A stretch of 41,064 bases of DNA from Cytophagales bacterium (GTDB lineage Bacteria > Bacteroidota > Bacteroidia > Cytophagales > Cytophagaceae). The notes beneath the pieces were generated by a model. The model had not been told where the DNA came from. It saw nothing but the letters and a program-made list of their open reading frames with translations, and did no database searches. The stretch covers positions 1-41,064 of the forward strand of contig JAAFID010000010.1 in NCBI GenBank assembly GCA_013297765.1, given 5' to 3'. Below are positions 954-25,918 of the stretch, in pieces (position 1 is the first letter of the stretch; every line of letters begins with the position of its first letter). The translations under genes and the position numbers were made by a program.

Positions 954-2231
954 TTATTTGGGTCTAGTAAGTTCAAATTTCGAAAATCCAGAAATGATGG
1001 CTTGATACAATAATTCACCTTGCAGCTCGTAACCCTTGCGGTTCAGGTGTAGTAAATCTTTTGACGTTAAATTTTTTCCATGCCACTTAGCAATGCTACC
1101 AAGCCCTCCCATAATTTCAAACAAATCCCAGTAAGCGATATTGTTGTTATTGCAATAATCTATAAGCACATTTCTGGCAATGGGAATATTGTTGTTTTTA
1201 TACTTTTTACTTCTGAAATGATCGCCCGGAATGGTTATTAACAGAGAGGCTTGGGGGTTATTAATTTTTAATGCAGTAATCAAAGTATCTACTTGCAATT
1301 TAAAAATTGCTGGGTCAAAAGATCTAGAGAAGGCTTCGTTAGTGCCTAACGAAATAATAATTAGATTGGGTTTTAACACTTTTTGTTGCTCTTGAAAATA
1401 TACGGATTTGTTGTAGTGCCTATACTCTGCTCCATTGATGCCAATGGTATTGTAAACAATTCCTGGCCTACTATTTTCAAGTACCAAACCATAAATCATG
1501 GTGTAATTTGGGTGGGTAAATGATCTTATGCGGGTGTTCAAACTTATGGTATTTTCCACATTCAGCAAGGGAACTTCTGAGTGAAATTTTTTATCTTCCG
1601 ATGGCAAGGAAGACACCATAGCAGTAGTTCCGCCGCAGCTATCGGTGATTTCAAAATCAAAACAATTTGTACACTTTTCATGAAATAAAGTGACCTTATT
1701 AAACTGGTAATTCAAATTGGGTTTGTTGCCTACCGTGATTTGAATACTTGCATTCATCTCCTCTGTTTTCAAGGTGAGACCGCCCACACCTATAGGCATG
1801 GAGTCTGCAATGGCAATATTTCTTTTACTCTTCCAAATATTATTACTGGATGTCTTATAGGTGTATGGTTCATTGGTACGCCCTACTTTGTATGGCACTA
1901 CAAGGCCACGACCAGCATTGCCGTAGGCAAGCTGCAACTGCTCTCTCAATTTTCCTGAAAACAAATCAGCCTGCAAGTGCGAGTCGCCAATATGAGTAAT
2001 GCGTACAGTAGCATTTCTGTTGGTTTTTAACTGTTGCAAATGGATATAAAATGAATCTAGTGCTGTACCCTCATTTTGTAGTTTATTAGCTAATATTTTT
2101 ACAAAAGGATACAGCTTTTTGATTTCTTGCAAGTCTTGAGCAAAACCATGCGAAGTGCCCATGATTACTAGCGTAAACAAGAAAAGTAATGAACGCATAG
2201 AAAGATTAATTTTGCCCATATTTACTTTCAT
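954..2231 (-). CDS. Exported SGNH/GDSL-type hydrolase-like protein of O-acetylation operon
   Basis: This 425-aa protein has an N-terminal hydrophobic export signal (RSLLFLFTLVIMGTSHGFAQ). SGNH blocks are visible: block I ITHIGDSHLQAD (Ser nucleophile around residue 83), a central GING, block III LIIISLGTNEAF with the Asn, and block V DLLHLNRKGYEL giving Asp and His. DSH in place of the classical GDSL is common in AlgX/AlgJ- and PatB-like acetylation partners. It overlaps the upstream SGNH gene by 26 bp and abuts the MBOAT gene, so translational coupling is likely. By context it takes acetyl groups delivered by the MBOAT protein and transfers them to, or removes them from, a periplasmic polysaccharide; the substrate cannot be told from sequence. 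Confidence 0.8.
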   Translation of the reverse strand: MKVNMGKINLSMRSLLFLFTLVIMGTSHGFAQDLQEIKKLYPFVKILANKLQNEGTALDSFYIHLQQLKTNRNATVRITHIGDSHLQADLFSGKLREQLQLAYGNAGRGLVVPYKVGRTNEPYTYKTSSNNIWKSKRNIAIADSMPIGVGGLTLKTEEMNASIQITVGNKPNLNYQFNKVTLFHEKCTNCFDFEITDSCGGTTAMVSSLPSEDKKFHSEVPLLNVENTISLNTRIRSFTHPNYTMIYGLVLENSRPGIVYNTIGINGAEYRHYNKSVYFQEQQKVLKPNLIIISLGTNEAFSRSFDPAIFKLQVDTLITALKINNPQASLLITIPGDHFRSKKYKNNNIPIARNVLIDYCNNNNIAYWDLFEIMGGLGSIAKWHGKNLTSKDLLHLNRKGYELQGELLYQAIISGFSKFELTRPK

Positions 2232-3621
2232 AATGTTGCAAGTTTTCTATCATCCAATCATAAATCAGATGTCCAATTTTTTCCGCACCTCGATAATTGA
2301 AATGCGTGTAGTCTTTATTGGCAAGGGCTGTATCTGCCTCGACCCACTTCACCATCGTATTTTCGCCACCCATGCTTCGGTAAAGGTTAAAGAAGGCAAT
2401 ATTATTTTTTTTTGCAATTCTGTACTGAGCTTCTAGCAGATATTTCAAGTTTGGTTCGGTCACAAAAGCACCGTCCACTTTACTACTTTTGTCGCTAATG
2501 CCTACCAGCAATATTGCGGTATTGGGACAAGCTATTTTTAAATTTTGGATTACCTTGTTCATACCACGTTCATACCAATTGAAAACTTTTAAATCAGAAC
2601 TAAGCACGTTGAGCCCGTAGTGTAGCACAATCATATCGTAATGGAGGTACTGGTTGAAAGAGCGAATCATTTCCACATTTAACCTCGAGAGTAGCATACC
2701 TGAATTGCCACGCAAAGAAAAATTATCGACAAATATACCACTATCACTTTCCATACTTAGCCCGAAAATATTTTGTTTTGATGGACTAGAGACTCCAATC
2801 TGTGCGGTATTCAGCAATGTAGTTGAAGAGAGAATTTTTTCATTGACCATATTTTTGCCTAGCAATAAAAATTTTGTCGATGTTTTTCCATTGTAAAAAA
2901 TTGCCGTGGATGGCTTGCCAATAGAGGGGGCGTAATACATTTTCACAGTTTCAAATTGATGCAATCGAACACTATTTTTAACACCCCAATATTTTGCCCA
3001 CGTATAGTCTAGCTTACTAGAATCAATAGCAGCAGAGTCTATAGGTGCAAAAAATCCATAGCCCGATATGCCGCAGTCGCTTGCTTTATTTTTTGGATTT
3101 AGCAAGGAAAACGTTGTCCATTTGGCATCAAATTTATGGGCTATTGTTTTTCTGAAACTAGCTACAGCACTGGTGATGGGGACAAAGCCTATTCCTCTGC
3201 CACCATATTTATTTTGTAGCAGTCTTCTTAGATTTTCAGTAATTAAATCGCCTTCTATCACCGAATCGCCAAAGTAAGCGATGCGAATTTTTTTCTTTTG
3301 ATGCTTTATGTCTTGAATGGATTTATAAAAAATATTCATGCTGCAAGCACTGTCACCATTGAGGTTTGGAATCAATTCTGGATTTATAACACTGTCATCT
3401 TCTATTGGTAATTGTGCTATAACGGCTGTATCTAATGGGCGAGAGGTTGCAATCTCCACTTTTGCTGTCGAGGAAACATGTCGTATATCCGCAATAAGGT
3501 CAACTGATTTCAGTTTATTTGACAACAGAAATTCTTTAGGAATATATGCAATAGCCACGAGAAACAATAGTGTGCAAAGCACTATCCATAAAGGCTGGTA
3601 AGAATATTCTTGTTGTTGCAT
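2206..3621 (-). CDS. Membrane-anchored SGNH hydrolase-like protein
   Basis: I start this gene at the ATG at 3621 (MQQQEYSYQPLW), about 471 aa. The open frame extends upstream to 3765, but the extra 48 residues look like untranslated leader and would bury the single N-terminal membrane segment (PLWIVLCTLLFLVAIAYIP). The SGNH core follows: block I IRIAYFGDSVIEGD, RGNSG, block III MIVLHYGLNVLS with Asn, and block V DYTHFNYRGAEKIG supplying Asp and His. A paralogue-like SGNH protein follows with a 26-bp overlap, then the MBOAT gene. One membrane-anchored plus one secreted SGNH protein with an MBOAT resembles bacterial polysaccharide O-acetylation machines; this role is inferred from context. Confidence 0.77.
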   Translation of the reverse strand: MQQQEYSYQPLWIVLCTLLFLVAIAYIPKEFLLSNKLKSVDLIADIRHVSSTAKVEIATSRPLDTAVIAQLPIEDDSVINPELIPNLNGDSACSMNIFYKSIQDIKHQKKKIRIAYFGDSVIEGDLITENLRRLLQNKYGGRGIGFVPITSAVASFRKTIAHKFDAKWTTFSLLNPKNKASDCGISGYGFFAPIDSAAIDSSKLDYTWAKYWGVKNSVRLHQFETVKMYYAPSIGKPSTAIFYNGKTSTKFLLLGKNMVNEKILSSTTLLNTAQIGVSSPSKQNIFGLSMESDSGIFVDNFSLRGNSGMLLSRLNVEMIRSFNQYLHYDMIVLHYGLNVLSSDLKVFNWYERGMNKVIQNLKIACPNTAILLVGISDKSSKVDGAFVTEPNLKYLLEAQYRIAKKNNIAFFNLYRSMGGENTMVKWVEADTALANKDYTHFNYRGAEKIGHLIYDWMIENLQHYESKYGQN

Positions 3622-4202
3622 ACAGTCATAAAGGTAATCATATTTAGAAAAGATATGGAGATGGTATGAACTAGATTTTTGCGAATAGATTATGTTTTTG
3701 ATGAAATGTATTGTTCCTATTAAATCATTTTGCCATCGTTCAACCCAACAAATATGGCTTTTCAACGCTAAGTTTTAATTTTTATACTATTATTTTAGAA
3801 TATTTATTTGTTGCATTTGATAATAATTACTGCTTTAATTTTTTGCTTTTGATTATTTTAATCAACGCACTATAATCTCTACAAGTATTATGAATATTGG
3901 GTAGTAGCTCTTTTTAATCGATATCGTCTGGTTTGCAATTTCACATCGCTGCACGTAGAACGCAACGTAGGCAATGGTTGCATTTATTTATTTTGGCAAA
4001 TGAAGTAAAGAATATTAAACATTTTTTTTATTTTAGCGGTATAATGCATTGAATTAAATTCATTCATTTCGCCTAACAATAAAGATTATTTTAATAAAAT
4101 ATTTTTCTATAGTTTCCCTCTGTATCGCCCGTAGATACAAGGTTTCAGAAGAATTAAAATTGATTAGCCTGTTCACAACAATTACACCCAAACCAAACAA
4201 CT
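3622..4202. other. AT-rich divergent intergenic region
   Basis: This 581-bp stretch separates the minus-strand SGNH operon from the plus-strand AKP-rich gene and must hold promoters for both. I see no open frame with coding character apart from the doubtful upstream extension of the SGNH gene. No clear TAnnTTTG box or hairpin stands out. It is much richer in A+T than the flanking genes. Confidence 0.5.
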
Positions 4203-4592
4203 ATGTCTGCAACAAAAAAAACAACTCCTGCACCAGCGAAGAAAGCTGCTGCTCCTGCAAAGAAAGCTACACCTGCACCAGCAGATAAATCTGCTGCTCC
4301 AGCAAAGAAGGCTGCACCAGCACCTGCAAAGAAACCTGCTGCTCCAGTGAAAAAAGCTGCTGCACCAGCAAAGAAGGCTGCACCAGCACCTGCAAAGAAA
4401 GCTGCTGCTCCAGCGAAGAAAGCTGCACCAGCACCTGCTAAGAAAGCCGCTGCCCCAGTGAAGAAAGCTGCCCCAGCACCTGCAAAGAAAGCCGCTGCCC
4501 CAGTGAAGAAGGCTGCTCCAGCGAAAAAAGCTGCCCCAGCACCTGCAAAGAAAGCCGCTGCCCCAGCTAAAAAAGCTGCTGGTAAAAAATAA
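4203..4592 (+). CDS. Ala/Lys/Pro-rich histone H1-like basic protein
   Basis: This 129-aa product is made almost entirely of Ala, Lys and Pro in repeats of the type AAPAKKAAPAPAKK and ends AAGKK. It has no folded domain, no signal peptide and no membrane segment. Such tails resemble eukaryotic H1 C-termini and bacterial H1-like proteins (Hc1/Hc2, AlgP-type), which bind DNA non-specifically through lysine-rich, disordered segments. Nucleoid compaction is therefore the likely role, but it is inferred from composition alone. The DNA is also repetitive (units around gcaccagcacctgcaaagaa), so copy number may vary between strains by slippage. The gene is monocistronic, followed after 19 bp by a strong hairpin terminator. 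Confidence 0.75.
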   Translation: MSATKKTTPAPAKKAAAPAKKATPAPADKSAAPAKKAAPAPAKKPAAPVKKAAAPAKKAAPAPAKKAAAPAKKAAPAPAKKAAAPVKKAAPAPAKKAAAPVKKAAPAKKAAPAPAKKAAAPAKKAAGKK

Positions 4593-4607
4593 TTTTACCT
4601 CACCAAT

Positions 4608-4734
4608 TAATAAAAAAACTCCTGAATATATTTTCTGGAGTTTTTTTATGGCCTTTGAAAATACTTGCCACAAACCTAATCGGCATAGTTGTCTCTAATG
4701 TTGGCAAAGAATGCCTCTCTGTATATGTCGCCAA
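4608..4734. repeat. 127-bp tandem duplication, copy 1
   Basis: This copy is identical to 4735-4861. It contains the terminator hairpin and a second copy of the last 18 or so codons of the LytTR regulator gene, now stranded outside that gene. The duplication is bounded by CCAA at 4603-4606, at 4731-4734 and at the outer end of copy 2. Confidence 0.92.
4612..4647. terminator. Bidirectional hairpin terminator, copy 1
   Basis: The stem is AAAAAAACTCC paired with GGAGTTTTTTT, with a further GAA/TTC pairing inside the loop after a T-T mismatch. The A-run on one side and T-run on the other make it usable in both directions. It lies 19 bp after the AKP-rich gene. Confidence 0.85.
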
Positions 4735-4861
4735 TAATAAAAAAACTCCTGAATATATTTTCTGGAGTTTTTTTATGGCCTTTGAAAATACTTGCCACAA
4801 ACCTAATCGGCATAGTTGTCTCTAATGTTGGCAAAGAATGCCTCTCTGTATATGTCGCCAA
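4735..4861. repeat. 127-bp tandem duplication, copy 2
   Basis: This is the second perfect copy, offset by exactly 127 bp. It runs into the 3' end of the LytTR gene, whose stop codon lies at 4803-4805. It is the functional copy for that gene. Confidence 0.92.
4739..4774. terminator. Bidirectional hairpin terminator, copy 2
   Basis: Same hairpin as the copy at 4612-4647, 127 bp further on. It sits 29 bp beyond the stop codon of the minus-strand LytTR gene and most directly serves that gene. Confidence 0.85.
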
Positions 4862-21609: not shown

Positions 21610-23325
21610 TTATCTCATGATTTTTAATTTGAAGCAGTGTTCATTGATTTGGCAAGTATATAATCCATTGGCCAACGAACTTGCATCTATTTTTAAATTA
21701 GAATTTCCCGTAGGAATCGTAGTTTCGTAAACTATTTTTGAGTGAATATCTCTAACAGTTACTGTTGTGTGGTTTTCAAGGTTAGCATTGACAACTATTT
21801 CGTTGGTTTCTGAATTGTAAAATGCGGTATAATTTAAATCTGTCATTGCTATTGCATTGTTTGCAGCTACCATTCCAGATTCTTCCCCTATTATAGTAAC
21901 GATACTTTGCGGAGGCAATGTAATCAAATCCGTATTGGCAATAATTCCTTTGCTTTGATACATTATAGAAGGCTGTTGGCTTACAACCTGAGCAAAATAT
22001 TTTGGCACTTGTTGCGATTCATCGAAAGATAGTTTAACTGTTTTACTTTCTGTTGGATTATCATTCACCAAAACTATAGTTAAAGTTTTATTTTTGTTGT
22101 GTTGAAATGCAACTGAATACAAATCATTTTCCGTTGCTTCACAGGCAACCTGAATCGCTCCTTGGTTTATATTTTTTGAAAAATGTTTTAAAACTTGATA
22201 GTTATATTTTTTACTTAAGTCATTATTCAATAATCCACCATAATCGGGACTATAAATGGGTGAAAAATACAACCAAGCAGACACTTTACCGTGCTTTAAA
22301 GAATTAATGATATTCACAGGGAAGAATTCATCGCCTGCTTCTGTAGAATATATTTTTAAGGTAGGGTCATAATTATTAAATATTTTTTGCATTGAATTGA
22401 ATGAACTTGGAGATATTGAACTGGCGAAAATACCTCCTGTCTGATATCCTTGAATAGCTGCGATTTTCTTGAACTTGTTAGCTTCAGAATTAATTGCAAA
22501 TGATTTCATGAAATTTTTAAATCGCCCAATATCAATAATATCTTCATTGAATAATAAATTGGTTTCAAATTTTTTGTTTACAATTCTTTGCCCCACTTTG
22601 TTCAGTGTAGCTATGTATGAAGAGTCTCTATAAACACAACTGGAGTAAGGTTGCCCAAAGTAAGGGTTGTTTTGGATACTTAACCCATGAATCGAAATTC
22701 CTTCTTGTTTCATATATTGAAGATAAGCCTCACAAAATTCGGCAAACTCTTCTTTGTAGTCGTTATTGCTTATACCAGCTGGTTTAATTTTGGCATTTTC
22801 TTCTGATGTAATCAAACGATTGTAATCGAAATCAGTACCATTTGCACAGTTGTTATATTTCATCCATTTAGGCGGCGAGGCTATGCTGGTAATAAAAATT
22901 GCAGAGTCGCCATTCTTTTTGACTAGATTTTTTAATTTCAAAAAGGTGTTTTTAGTAATCTCTACAGGCATAAAAGCATCTCCATCGCAGGCAGTATTAA
23001 CTTTATTTTGCAAATTAAATTTTGGCAAATCAAGCACATTTGGGTCGTTATTATCATTGACCAATTCGAACTCAGGTTCTAAATAATTTCTAAAAATAGT
23101 AAGCCCCAAATCATTTACTAAAAGGTCGGCCAAAGTATCTCTCATTGGTTTTGTGGGTGGAAAATTTTCTGCGACTACCTTTGAACTGTGGTCTGTTGCC
23201 AATACCCCAAACCCATCTATTTGTTGGTATTGGATAGCTTTATTGATTTTGATAATAGTCTGTGCAATGCTAGAACCATAAATGGAGATGCTAAAAAAAA
23301 TTATAGACAGAAAAATTTTCATCAT
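21610..23325 (-). CDS. GH30-like secreted glycosidase homologue with T9SS sorting domain, acid/base Glu replaced
   Basis: This 571-aa protein has a signal peptide, then a GH30-type start (IDGFGV near residue 40), a (beta/alpha)8 barrel with SPPKWMK, and a C-terminal beta domain (LVNDNP, TLPPQSIVTII). The nucleophile is preserved as Glu329 in YSTEAGDEF. The usual acid/base motif QNEP reads QNNP here, with Asn220 encoded by AAC at 22666-22668. GH30 enzymes act on xylan, beta-1,6-glucan and similar polymers; this one may have lost hydrolysis and kept binding, or it uses another residue. The last 70 or so residues form a type A T9SS sorting domain (ASSLANGLYTCQI, ending KLKIMR), so it is a cell-surface or secreted protein. 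It stands alone, with no SusC/SusD pair nearby. Confidence 0.83.
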   Translation of the reverse strand: MMKIFLSIIFFSISIYGSSIAQTIIKINKAIQYQQIDGFGVLATDHSSKVVAENFPPTKPMRDTLADLLVNDLGLTIFRNYLEPEFELVNDNNDPNVLDLPKFNLQNKVNTACDGDAFMPVEITKNTFLKLKNLVKKNGDSAIFITSIASPPKWMKYNNCANGTDFDYNRLITSEENAKIKPAGISNNDYKEEFAEFCEAYLQYMKQEGISIHGLSIQNNPYFGQPYSSCVYRDSSYIATLNKVGQRIVNKKFETNLLFNEDIIDIGRFKNFMKSFAINSEANKFKKIAAIQGYQTGGIFASSISPSSFNSMQKIFNNYDPTLKIYSTEAGDEFFPVNIINSLKHGKVSAWLYFSPIYSPDYGGLLNNDLSKKYNYQVLKHFSKNINQGAIQVACEATENDLYSVAFQHNKNKTLTIVLVNDNPTESKTVKLSFDESQQVPKYFAQVVSQQPSIMYQSKGIIANTDLITLPPQSIVTIIGEESGMVAANNAIAMTDLNYTAFYNSETNEIVVNANLENHTTVTVRDIHSKIVYETTIPTGNSNLKIDASSLANGLYTCQINEHCFKLKIMR

Positions 23326-23392: not shown

Positions 23393-23431
23393 TTCCTCCG
23401 CAAAAATTTCCCTATCTTTGCCCCTTATATC
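23393..23431. repeat. 39-bp direct repeat, left copy (DR-L)
   Basis: Identical over 39 bp to 24270-24308. It carries the TATCTTTG box (23413-23420) that belongs to the prfC promoter, but here no plus-strand gene follows. Confidence 0.93.
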
Positions 23432-23512
23432 AATTGAATATTTGATGTGGAATGTTTTGCATACATCGTATAAGTATTTAATTAATAATATTTTATTGGC
23501 AAAATGAAATTT

Positions 23513-23812
23513 TTAAATTACTACTCCATAATTTAAAACCTCTTTTAAAAAGCCGCTCTCATCATGATTATTATCAATTAATATTGGTTCTATCCTTTCG
23601 TCTATATCACGACGTAGTTTCCATAGCAACGGAGCGTACGTAAAAAAATCTCCTTGAATAGAATTGACAACTATTGCCACATCAATATCACTTTCCTCTT
23701 TTTGGCTGCCTCTTGCATACGAACCAAAAAGAACCATCTTATCGAGATCAAAGTATTTTGAAACGACAATTTTATATTTAGATAGCAACTCTACAGCTTC
23801 TCTTTTATCCAC
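23513..23812 (-). CDS. MNT-type minimal nucleotidyltransferase, antitoxin-like
   Basis: This 99-aa protein starts with GTG at 23812. It carries the polymerase-beta superfamily signature GSYARGSQKEESDID (G-S-x10-D-x-D), the MNT hallmark. MNT proteins paired with HEPN proteins act in some systems as antitoxins that AMPylate the HEPN partner. It overlaps the 3' end of the upstream HEPN gene by 22 bp, so the pair is co-translated. The pair lies between two identical 39-bp repeats. Confidence 0.9.
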   Translation of the reverse strand: MDKREAVELLSKYKIVVSKYFDLDKMVLFGSYARGSQKEESDIDVAIVVNSIQGDFFTYAPLLWKLRRDIDERIEPILIDNNHDESGFLKEVLNYGVVI

Positions 23813-24177
23813 AATTGCAATTTTTTAGTATTTGTTAATATGGATACACATCTTTCTTTTGAAAGGCTCTTCATCAACTGCTCTTTGTGTGAAGGATACC
23901 TCGCTTCAATATTTAATGGTTCCAAAATATCAATAAAATCTTTAAAATCATCAGAGAGTAAATCATAAATGTTAGCCTTTTTTGCTAAATAAGAAAGTCG
24001 ATGTGAAAATGGTGCAGCTTCCTCACTTACAGAATTATAATAGGCCTTAAATATTTTCTCGATGGTTTGATGACACATAAACCCAACATATAAATAACGC
24101 TTGCTTTGCTGCATAGCCTCAGCTGTGTCTAAATCATAGTCTGACAATTCTACCCAATATTTAACCTTAGAATTCAT
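23791..24177 (-). CDS. HEPN-domain protein, partner of MNT nucleotidyltransferase
   Basis: This 128-aa all-helical protein has the PF05168-type HEPN pattern: YWVELSDYDLDTAEAM, RYLYVGFMCHQTIEKIFKAY, and IEARYPSHKEQ. The Rx4-6H RNase motif of HepT-type toxins is not evident; the nearest match is R-x3-H in RYPSH. It may therefore be a binding partner and not an active nuclease. It is the first gene of the two-gene HEPN/MNT unit and begins 93 bp inside the right-hand 39-bp repeat. A toxin-antitoxin role is plausible but not established by the sequence. Confidence 0.85.
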   Translation of the reverse strand: MNSKVKYWVELSDYDLDTAEAMQQSKRYLYVGFMCHQTIEKIFKAYYNSVSEEAAPFSHRLSYLAKKANIYDLLSDDFKDFIDILEPLNIEARYPSHKEQLMKSLSKERCVSILTNTKKLQLWIKEKL

Positions 24178-24269
24178 AAAAGCTCATTTATCTACAAATT
24201 ACAAATTAATTAAATAGATTCATGAAAAGTGGTAACATTTGCTAGCCAAAAAAACTATTTGAGTAAAAT

Positions 24270-24308
24270 TTCCTCCGCAAAAATTTCCCTATCTTTGCCC
24301 CTTATATC
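24270..24308. repeat. 39-bp direct repeat, right copy (DR-R), carrying the prfC promoter
   Basis: Perfect copy of 23393-23431, 877 bp away. Identity stops abruptly at both ends. It ends 8 bp before the prfC start codon. Confidence 0.93.
24290..24297 (+). promoter_or_regulatory. Candidate -7 box (TATCTTTG) for prfC
   Basis: TATCTTTG matches TAnnTTTG and lies 19 bp before the prfC ATG, giving a short leader of about a dozen bases. Confidence 0.55.
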
Positions 24309-24316
24309 CATTTCCC

Positions 24317-25918
24317 ATGAGTACTACTTCTGAAATTACCAAACGCCGCACTTTTGCTATCATTAGTCACCCTGATGCTGGGAAAACCACACTTACTGAG
24401 AAACTTTTACTTTTTGGCGGTGCTATTCAAACTGCTGGGGCTGTAAAGTCTAACAAGATTAAAAAAACAGCAACCTCTGATTTTATGGAGATAGAGAAGC
24501 AACGTGGTATTTCAGTGGCTACCTCGGTAATGGTGTTTGATTATAAAGGCGTACGTGTAAACTTGCTAGATACTCCTGGTCACAAAGATTTTGCGGAAGA
24601 CACCTACCGTACCCTTACTGCAGTAGATAGTGTAATACTAGTAATTGACTGTGCAAAAGGCGTAGAAGCACAAACTGAGCGATTGATGGAAGTATGTCGC
24701 ATGCGTAATACCCCTGTAATTGTGTTCATCAACAAAATGGACAGAGAGGGCAGAGACCCTTTTGATTTGCTGGAAGAAATAGAAGAAAAATTATTCATAA
24801 AATTACGGCCTCTGGCTTGGCCCATAGGCATGGGCAGCACTTTTAAAGGAGTTTATAATTTGCATGAAAAAACATTAAACCTGTTTCAAGTTTCCAAAAC
24901 TACCATTGCCAAAGAAAAAATAAGCATTAACAACCTAGACGACCCAGCACTAGTTGCCGAAATAGGAGAGAGGGCTACAGCATCGTTGAAAGACGATGTA
25001 GAATTGATAGAAGGATTGTTTGAACCCTTTGACCAAGGGCTTTACGAAGATGCTTTGCTGGCTCCAGTTTTCTTTGGTAGTGGGGTAAACAACTTTGGAG
25101 TGCAAGAATTGCTAGATACTTTTATTGAAATAGCCCCTAAGCCTGCACCCAGAATTACGGACAAAAGAGAGGTGCTGCCAACAGAAGATAAATTCAGTGG
25201 TTTTGTATTTAAAATTCACGCCAACCTAGACCCTAGGCACCGTGACCGTATTGCGTTTTTAAGGGTTTGCTCAGGGGTTTTTGAACGCAATAAATTTTTT
25301 CACCATGTGCGGTTGAATAAAAATTTCAAATTTGCCAACCCCTATACCTTCTTGGCACAAGATAAAACAGTGATAGAAGAAGCCTACCCTGGCGACGTGA
25401 TAGGGCTCTACGATACAGGCAATTTTAAAATAGGCGATACGCTAAGCGAAGGAGAAAATTTCTTTTTCAAAGGTATTCCTAGTTTTTCGCCCGAGTTGTT
25501 TAAGGAAGTGGTCAATGCCGACCCTATGAAATCAAAGCAACTAGAGAAAGGCTTGATGCAACTAACCGATGAGGGTGTTGCACAATTGTTTGTACAGAAA
25601 ATTGGCAATAGAAAAATAATAGGCACGGTGGGCGAGTTGCAGTTTGAGGTAATTCAACATCGCTTGCTCAATGAATATGGGGCTTCTTGCAATTACCATC
25701 ACATGAATTACTACAAAGCGTGCTGGCTTACTACCACCGACAAGAAACGATTGGAAGAATTTATCCAACGGAAATCGAACCAAATTCTTTACGACAAAGA
25801 TGAAAACCCAGTATTCATGGCCGATTCGGAATGGACGTTGAGAACGCAAAAGGATAATTTTCCTGAAATCACTTTCCATACCACCTCTGAGTTTAAGATA
25901 GCATTGCCCGCAGTGTAG
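24317..25918 (+). CDS. prfC: Peptide chain release factor 3 (RF3)
   Basis: This 533-aa translational GTPase recycles RF1 and RF2 after stop-codon recognition. The G domain has [15 protein letters not shown] (P loop), [10 protein letters not shown] (switch I), DTPGHKDF (G3) and [11 protein letters not shown] (G4). Domains II and III follow ([29 protein letters not shown]-type segment and [17 protein letters not shown]). Length and the RF3-specific [13 protein letters not shown] segment separate it from EF-G. Its promoter lies inside a 39-bp sequence that is repeated on the far side of the HEPN/MNT pair. Confidence 0.97.

Follow-up and report, generated by a model that had tools for sequence, protein, structure and literature searches.

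A HEPN/MNT Gene Pair Bracketed by a 39-bp Direct Repeat of the prfC Promoter and Similar Bracketing of Related Modules in Bacteroidota

The locus described here raises the question of how a pair of small genes with no recombinase of its own came to lie between two identical copies of another gene's promoter. A survey of Tn3 transposons described the molecular route by which toxin-antitoxin pairs are acquired as unclear (PMC7157771), and recent HEPN-MNT insertions have been noted in Deinococcus and Thermus, for which neither a mechanism nor flanking repeats were given (PMC2701414). The open literature that we searched, the coverage of which was incomplete, yielded no account of long target duplication affecting toxin-antitoxin-like modules. 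The recurrent bracketing reported below offers a hint as to how gene pairs this small can move in the absence of known jumping machinery.

The repeat, the gene pair, and prfC

A repeat scan of the window (i.e., the whole 41,064-nt stretch of Cytophagales DNA that was analyzed) bore out the 39-bp identity between positions 23393 to 23431 and 24270 to 24308 given in a preliminary description, with the two copies starting 877 bp apart. The same description had the copies diverging at once on both sides, which holds for the left side only; on the right, three more bases match after one mismatch, and the match reaches 43 bp if one mismatch is allowed. By our own estimate, the chance expectation for a 39-mer repeat in 41 kb is about 5e-14. 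A search of the whole 3.56-Mb assembly, which the preliminary description had proposed, located the 39-mer at two sites only with up to three mismatches allowed (reversed-pattern control, 0), and the possibility of a common dispersed repeat was rejected on this basis. No inverted repeat of at least 18 bp was found in the window, and the locus has neither the terminal inverted repeats nor the short (2- to 14-bp) duplications of a DNA transposon. Next in length come two repeats located elsewhere in the window, one a 127-bp tandem copy and the other a coding repeat rich in alanine and lysine. The tandem duplication (positions 4608 to 4861; perfect copies starting at 4608 and 4735, a spacing of exactly 127) has a terminator-like hairpin and is located between a response-regulator gene and a lysine/alanine-repeat gene. 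A short open reading frame at positions 4182 to 4673 has alanine/lysine/proline-rich internal repeats and a histone H1-like composition, with no Pfam match.

Both copies of the 39-bp repeat, read on the plus strand, contain a TATCTTTG box (23413 to 23420 in the left copy and 24290 to 24297 in the right copy). The ATG of an intact prfC gene (peptide chain release factor 3; 24317 to 25918, plus strand) lies 19 nt beyond the box in the right copy. In the congener G001, whose PrfC is 92% identical at the amino acid level, TATCTTTG is followed by the same 19 nt to the ATG, and a similar box, TATTTTTG, occurs upstream of prfC in the genome G012. Because these upstream boxes agree with the right copy, the right copy represents the native prfC promoter and the left copy the extra one, in line with the earlier claims that the repeat duplicates the prfC promoter and that the right copy holds its box. 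The left copy, as also described earlier, is an orphan prfC-type promoter aimed at the 3' end of the minus-strand MNT gene. The prfC gene of G001 sits among other neighbors, and no HEPN/MNT pair was found beside prfC in the relatives inspected (G001, G002, and G012), which rejects a HEPN/MNT-prfC arrangement fixed across relatives. At the threshold used, only 4 of the 19 family genomes had a prfC match. We found no empty prfC site for the host species, because its sole congener, G001, carries prfC elsewhere and is not syntenic.

With an intact TATCTTTG in both copies and the left one facing into MNT in antisense, the promoter might have been duplicated under selection, for antisense transcription against MNT/HEPN or for other regulation, rather than by insertion. 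In relatives, however, duplication is not confined to promoters but extends to gene ends, tRNA pieces, and terminators, and such an origin appears very improbable.

The unit between the copies (23432 to 24269; 838 bp) consists of the HEPN and MNT genes and short flanks only, with no recombinase, and the gene coordinates confirm that the pair lies wholly between the copies. The first gene encodes a HEPN-domain protein, the putative toxin (23791 to 24177, minus strand; PF05168, E = 3.6e-17), and overlaps by 22 nt the gene for a minimal nucleotidyltransferase (MNT), the putative antitoxin (23513 to 23812, minus strand; PF18765/PF01909; GTG start), in which the GSX10DXD active site is intact (GSYARGSQKEESDID). 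The MNT stop codon is 81 nt from the left copy, and the 92 nt from the HEPN start to the right copy (24178 to 24269, minus strand; G+C content, 23%) presumably include the promoter of the pair. The MNT protein scored 41.5 bits against the NCBIfam MntA equivalog, below the cut-off of 60, and matched the PADLOC candidate PDC-S09. The HEPN protein belongs to an "RYP" subfamily without the RX4-6H motif; its RYPSH represents RX3H, the H of which is not conserved among its relatives, and R-Y is conserved across the subfamily instead of RX4-6H. Several MNT-associated HEPNs without this motif were described in a survey of HEPN proteins (PMC3710099). The putative HEPN toxin is probably silenced by MNT nucleotidylation.

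The left neighbor of the repeat (21610 to 23325, minus strand) encodes a secreted protein with a Por secretion tail and partial similarity to the glucanase/xylanase family. Its own family has nine matching places in the host genome (including contigs C137, C104, C25, C149, C132, and C239) and five in the congener; the remaining 17 family genomes had no match at the threshold used.

The HEPN gene is absent from the 18 other genomes of the family, and its best match in its own order was 44% (390 genomes searched). Homologs at 56 to 76% occur in many Bacteroidales and other Bacteroidota and in some Desulfobulbaceae, Cloacimonadota, and Bacillota metagenome-assembled genomes, the nearest (up to 76%) being in Bacteroidales. 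The absence from the family, together with the closer homologs in distant taxa, indicates that the pair is foreign, patchy in its distribution, and horizontally acquired. Neither a relative of this HEPN nor any 25-mer of the repeat was present in viral contigs, and carriage of the pair by phages was therefore rejected. All 14 genomes checked have one HEPN copy each. The second HEPN/MNT pair of the host genome (contig C267) has no bracketing repeat.

Bracketing at related loci

At 78 related loci, including the present one, we looked for similarity between the HEPN-upstream and MNT-downstream sequences, using repeat thresholds fixed only after a first look at the data. Near direct repeats were identified at 22 or 23 of the 78 loci, according to slightly different geometry, and in the set of 22 they are 29 to 334 bp long (median, 103.5 bp) and 71 to 100% identical (median, 86.5%). 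Inverted repeats, used as a control in the same sequences, were found at 1 of 78 loci, and ORF-bounded intervals at the same loci were bracketed in 1 of 115 cases (Fisher P of ~1.6e-9); about 6% of random non-spanning intervals were bracketed under a looser criterion. The loci are not fully independent (L057 and L060 share a target, as do L064 and L072, and the target of L059 is also present in L073). Most targets are unrelated in sequence from locus to locus. At L119 and at the present locus the target is the promoter or leader of the next gene, at L123 it is the 5' end of a PDDEXK-family gene, at L060 it is an FMN-reductase gene at its 3' end, and at L102 it is the 3' part of tRNA-Pro. In the HEPN tree, the bracketed loci are scattered (18 changes, versus 19.6 for shuffled labels).

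Several repeats are unlike clean target duplications: those of L082, L077, and L111 look dispersed or palindromic, those of L064 and L072 lie within RHS-like repeats, and L075 possibly represents tandem paralogs. The repeat of L118, an internal tRNA-Phe piece, was judged doubtful yet kept in the counts. Many copies are 71 to 90% identical, which fits age and also a chimeric origin. About 55 of the 78 loci have no near repeat; these may be old insertions, may have arisen by other routes, or may reflect a selective process. For the other HEPN/MNT subfamilies in the order of the host, bracketing was found at 1 of 24 loci, and an exact-repeat scan of the 24 was likewise positive at this locus (L044) alone. 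The L044 pair, in genome G130, lies between 431-bp repeats that are 89% identical, the repeat apparently representing a DUF5618-like gene that was duplicated. The HEPN copies of L062, L078, L089, L093, and L127 have an early stop in the frame taken from the match start and may be pseudogenes or frame-shifted assemblies.

At 11 of the 22 bracketed loci, the start of the right copy falls between -5 and +20 nt relative to the MNT stop, and the distance from HEPN to the repeat on the other side has a median of 98 nt (22 loci). Near-identical pairs at different sites mostly have in common only the DNA from ~60 to 100 nt before HEPN to approximately the MNT stop. As judged from these ends, the inserted unit is a promoter plus two genes. 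YafQ modules are also bracketed, so the footprint is, on small numbers, not limited to one family: 4 of 14 YafQ loci, including a module in G478, have close repeats (36 to 109 bp; 95 to 100% identical), and inverted-repeat controls were at the background level. In two of them, L188 and L196, only about 5 nt separate the YafQ toxin stop from the start of the right copy.

Empty sites were found for L102. The computed flank-joined sequence of this locus can be aligned over its full length with four congeners (91 to 95%) and over nearly its full length with two that are more distant (76%), and each empty site has a single copy of a 42-bp tRNA-Pro segment. These alignments demonstrate a precise insertion at L102, evidently with duplication of the 42-bp segment. 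For L119 (Muribaculaceae) and L123 (Bacteroides), no close match across the junction was found. The same tRNA-Pro site is occupied in other genomes: in G403 (L183) by a 5.8-kb element that encodes a phage-integrase-like protein and is bracketed by the same tRNA-Pro 3' segment, from the anticodon loop on; in G473 by about 27 kb of other genes; and in G478 (L176, positions 1833 to 3173) by the YafQ toxin-antitoxin module, between 109-bp repeats (98% identical) that correspond to the 3' part of tRNA-Pro plus its terminator.

These comparisons also bear on a false join at the 39-bp word, conceivable in a draft host genome of 290 contigs. The HEPN and MNT genes are, however, intact and in the same order as in relatives, the context of the right copy agrees with the congener prfC, and the same pattern recurs in many unrelated assemblies, with empty sites in congeners. 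We therefore find an assembly artifact hardly credible.

Possible routes of insertion

We conclude that a horizontally acquired HEPN/MNT module probably entered the prfC core promoter by insertion, duplicating 39 bp of its target. Insertion with target duplication, one of the origins put forward in the preliminary description, is well supported for the family by the patchy foreign pair, the native right copy, and bracketing far above the controls, and it also rests on the empty sites for one relative (L102). We infer that the present module entered by the same process as the related loci, and this process may be the "insertion with long target duplication" that has been documented in restriction-modification systems (PMC3874152, PMC3031569). 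In the candidate route, the two-gene module would enter the prfC core promoter by being end-joined into two opposite-strand nicks some 30 to 330 nt apart, and gap filling would then duplicate the target. With the 39 bp duplicated, prfC would therefore have retained a complete promoter, and the second copy would be left stranded past the far end of the insert. Recombination between the two copies is predicted, plausibly, to allow precise loss of the module. More generally, this HEPN/MNT subfamily and the YafQ pairs in Bacteroidota may be insertion units that arrive again and again at new genomic sites, each made up of little beyond a promoter and two genes, with a long and variable target duplication, no linked recombinase, and a common host process, a generalization that we offer tentatively.

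The candidate routes are expected to leave different marks. Staggered nicks followed by gap filling would produce variable duplications, integration of a circle would produce copies that are chimeric and targets that are shared, and an integrase acting in trans would produce one core. Under site-specific integration, the 39-bp copies would be attL and attR, produced by a tyrosine-recombinase integrase acting in trans or since deleted, with HEPN/MNT as the cargo left behind. Cores of 30 to 50 bp are typical of tyrosine-recombinase elements. The tRNA-Pro 3' segment at the L102 site also brackets the integrase-like element of G403; therefore, att-type integration is a real alternative at tRNA sites, and an integrase may be involved at this one. 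At the present locus, however, the target is a promoter and not a tRNA, and a Pfam scan of the window genes found no integrase, whether in the insert, next to it, or elsewhere, and no transposase was found. Moreover, a single integrase would reuse one core, whereas the repeats (29 to 334 bp) are mostly unrelated between loci and no conserved core common to the insertions was found. We consider site-specific integration unlikely here.

A further route is homologous or repeat-mediated integration of a circle: the pair would excise between its repeats together with a single copy of the target and then enter a different genome, again at that gene. The copies often differ by 5 to 15%, as chimeras would, L057 and L060 both target the end of the same FMN-reductase gene, and the stretch after the left copy of L102 is like the tRNA-Pro terminator found in other congeners and not that of the empty-site ones. 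The targets are, however, unrelated at most loci, for which carried homology would not account unless a first insertion step had come before, and the copies at the present locus are identical, which makes circle integration a doubtful explanation. Taken together, the evidence favors staggered nicks with gap filling for most loci. The tRNA-Pro site keeps a trans-acting integrase alive, and this route and repeat-mediated circle integration are live rivals, especially at tRNA sites.

Comparison with known systems

A footprint that can be counted makes the mobility of small toxin-antitoxin modules without a mobile element testable, since it supplies the exact ends of the insert, the empty sites, and the length of each duplication. 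It also ties toxin-antitoxin-like modules to restriction-modification systems, which are likewise addictive gene pairs and leave the same footprint.

The present pair resembles the HepT/MntA type VII toxin-antitoxin system in having two small overlapping genes, encoding a HEPN protein and a minimal nucleotidyltransferase with GSX10DXD. It differs in that its HEPN, of the PF05168 group, has RYPSH (RX3H) rather than RX4-6H and in that its MNT scores under the NCBI cut-off of the MntA model. The SXT/R391 integrative and conjugative elements (ICEs) of gammaproteobacteria integrate at the 5' end of prfC by means of an integrase and a short core that lies within this gene. The target gene neighborhood is thus the same, whereas the insert here is 838 bp long and lies in the promoter of a Bacteroidota prfC. 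Tyrosine-recombinase islands and integrative and mobilizable elements (IMEs) at tRNA genes likewise have direct repeats of 40 to 50 bp at their ends, and the L102 site is common to the G403 element. In contrast, the insert here has no integrase and a promoter as its target, and the repeat differs at most loci.

Insertion with long target duplication was reportedly described for restriction-modification systems by Nobusato et al. in 2000 and Furuta et al. in 2010 and is reviewed in PMC3874152. Those insertions concern restriction-modification genes in Helicobacter and the present ones HEPN/MNT and YafQ modules in Bacteroidota, half of the insertions here having an end no more than about 20 nt from the MNT stop. 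The two share a small addictive gene pair with no linked transposase, a direct duplication of tens to hundreds of base pairs (39 bp here and 29 to 334 bp in relatives) that varies in length and target, the lack of a transposase, integrase, or terminal inverted repeats, and genes that are patchy and horizontally moved.
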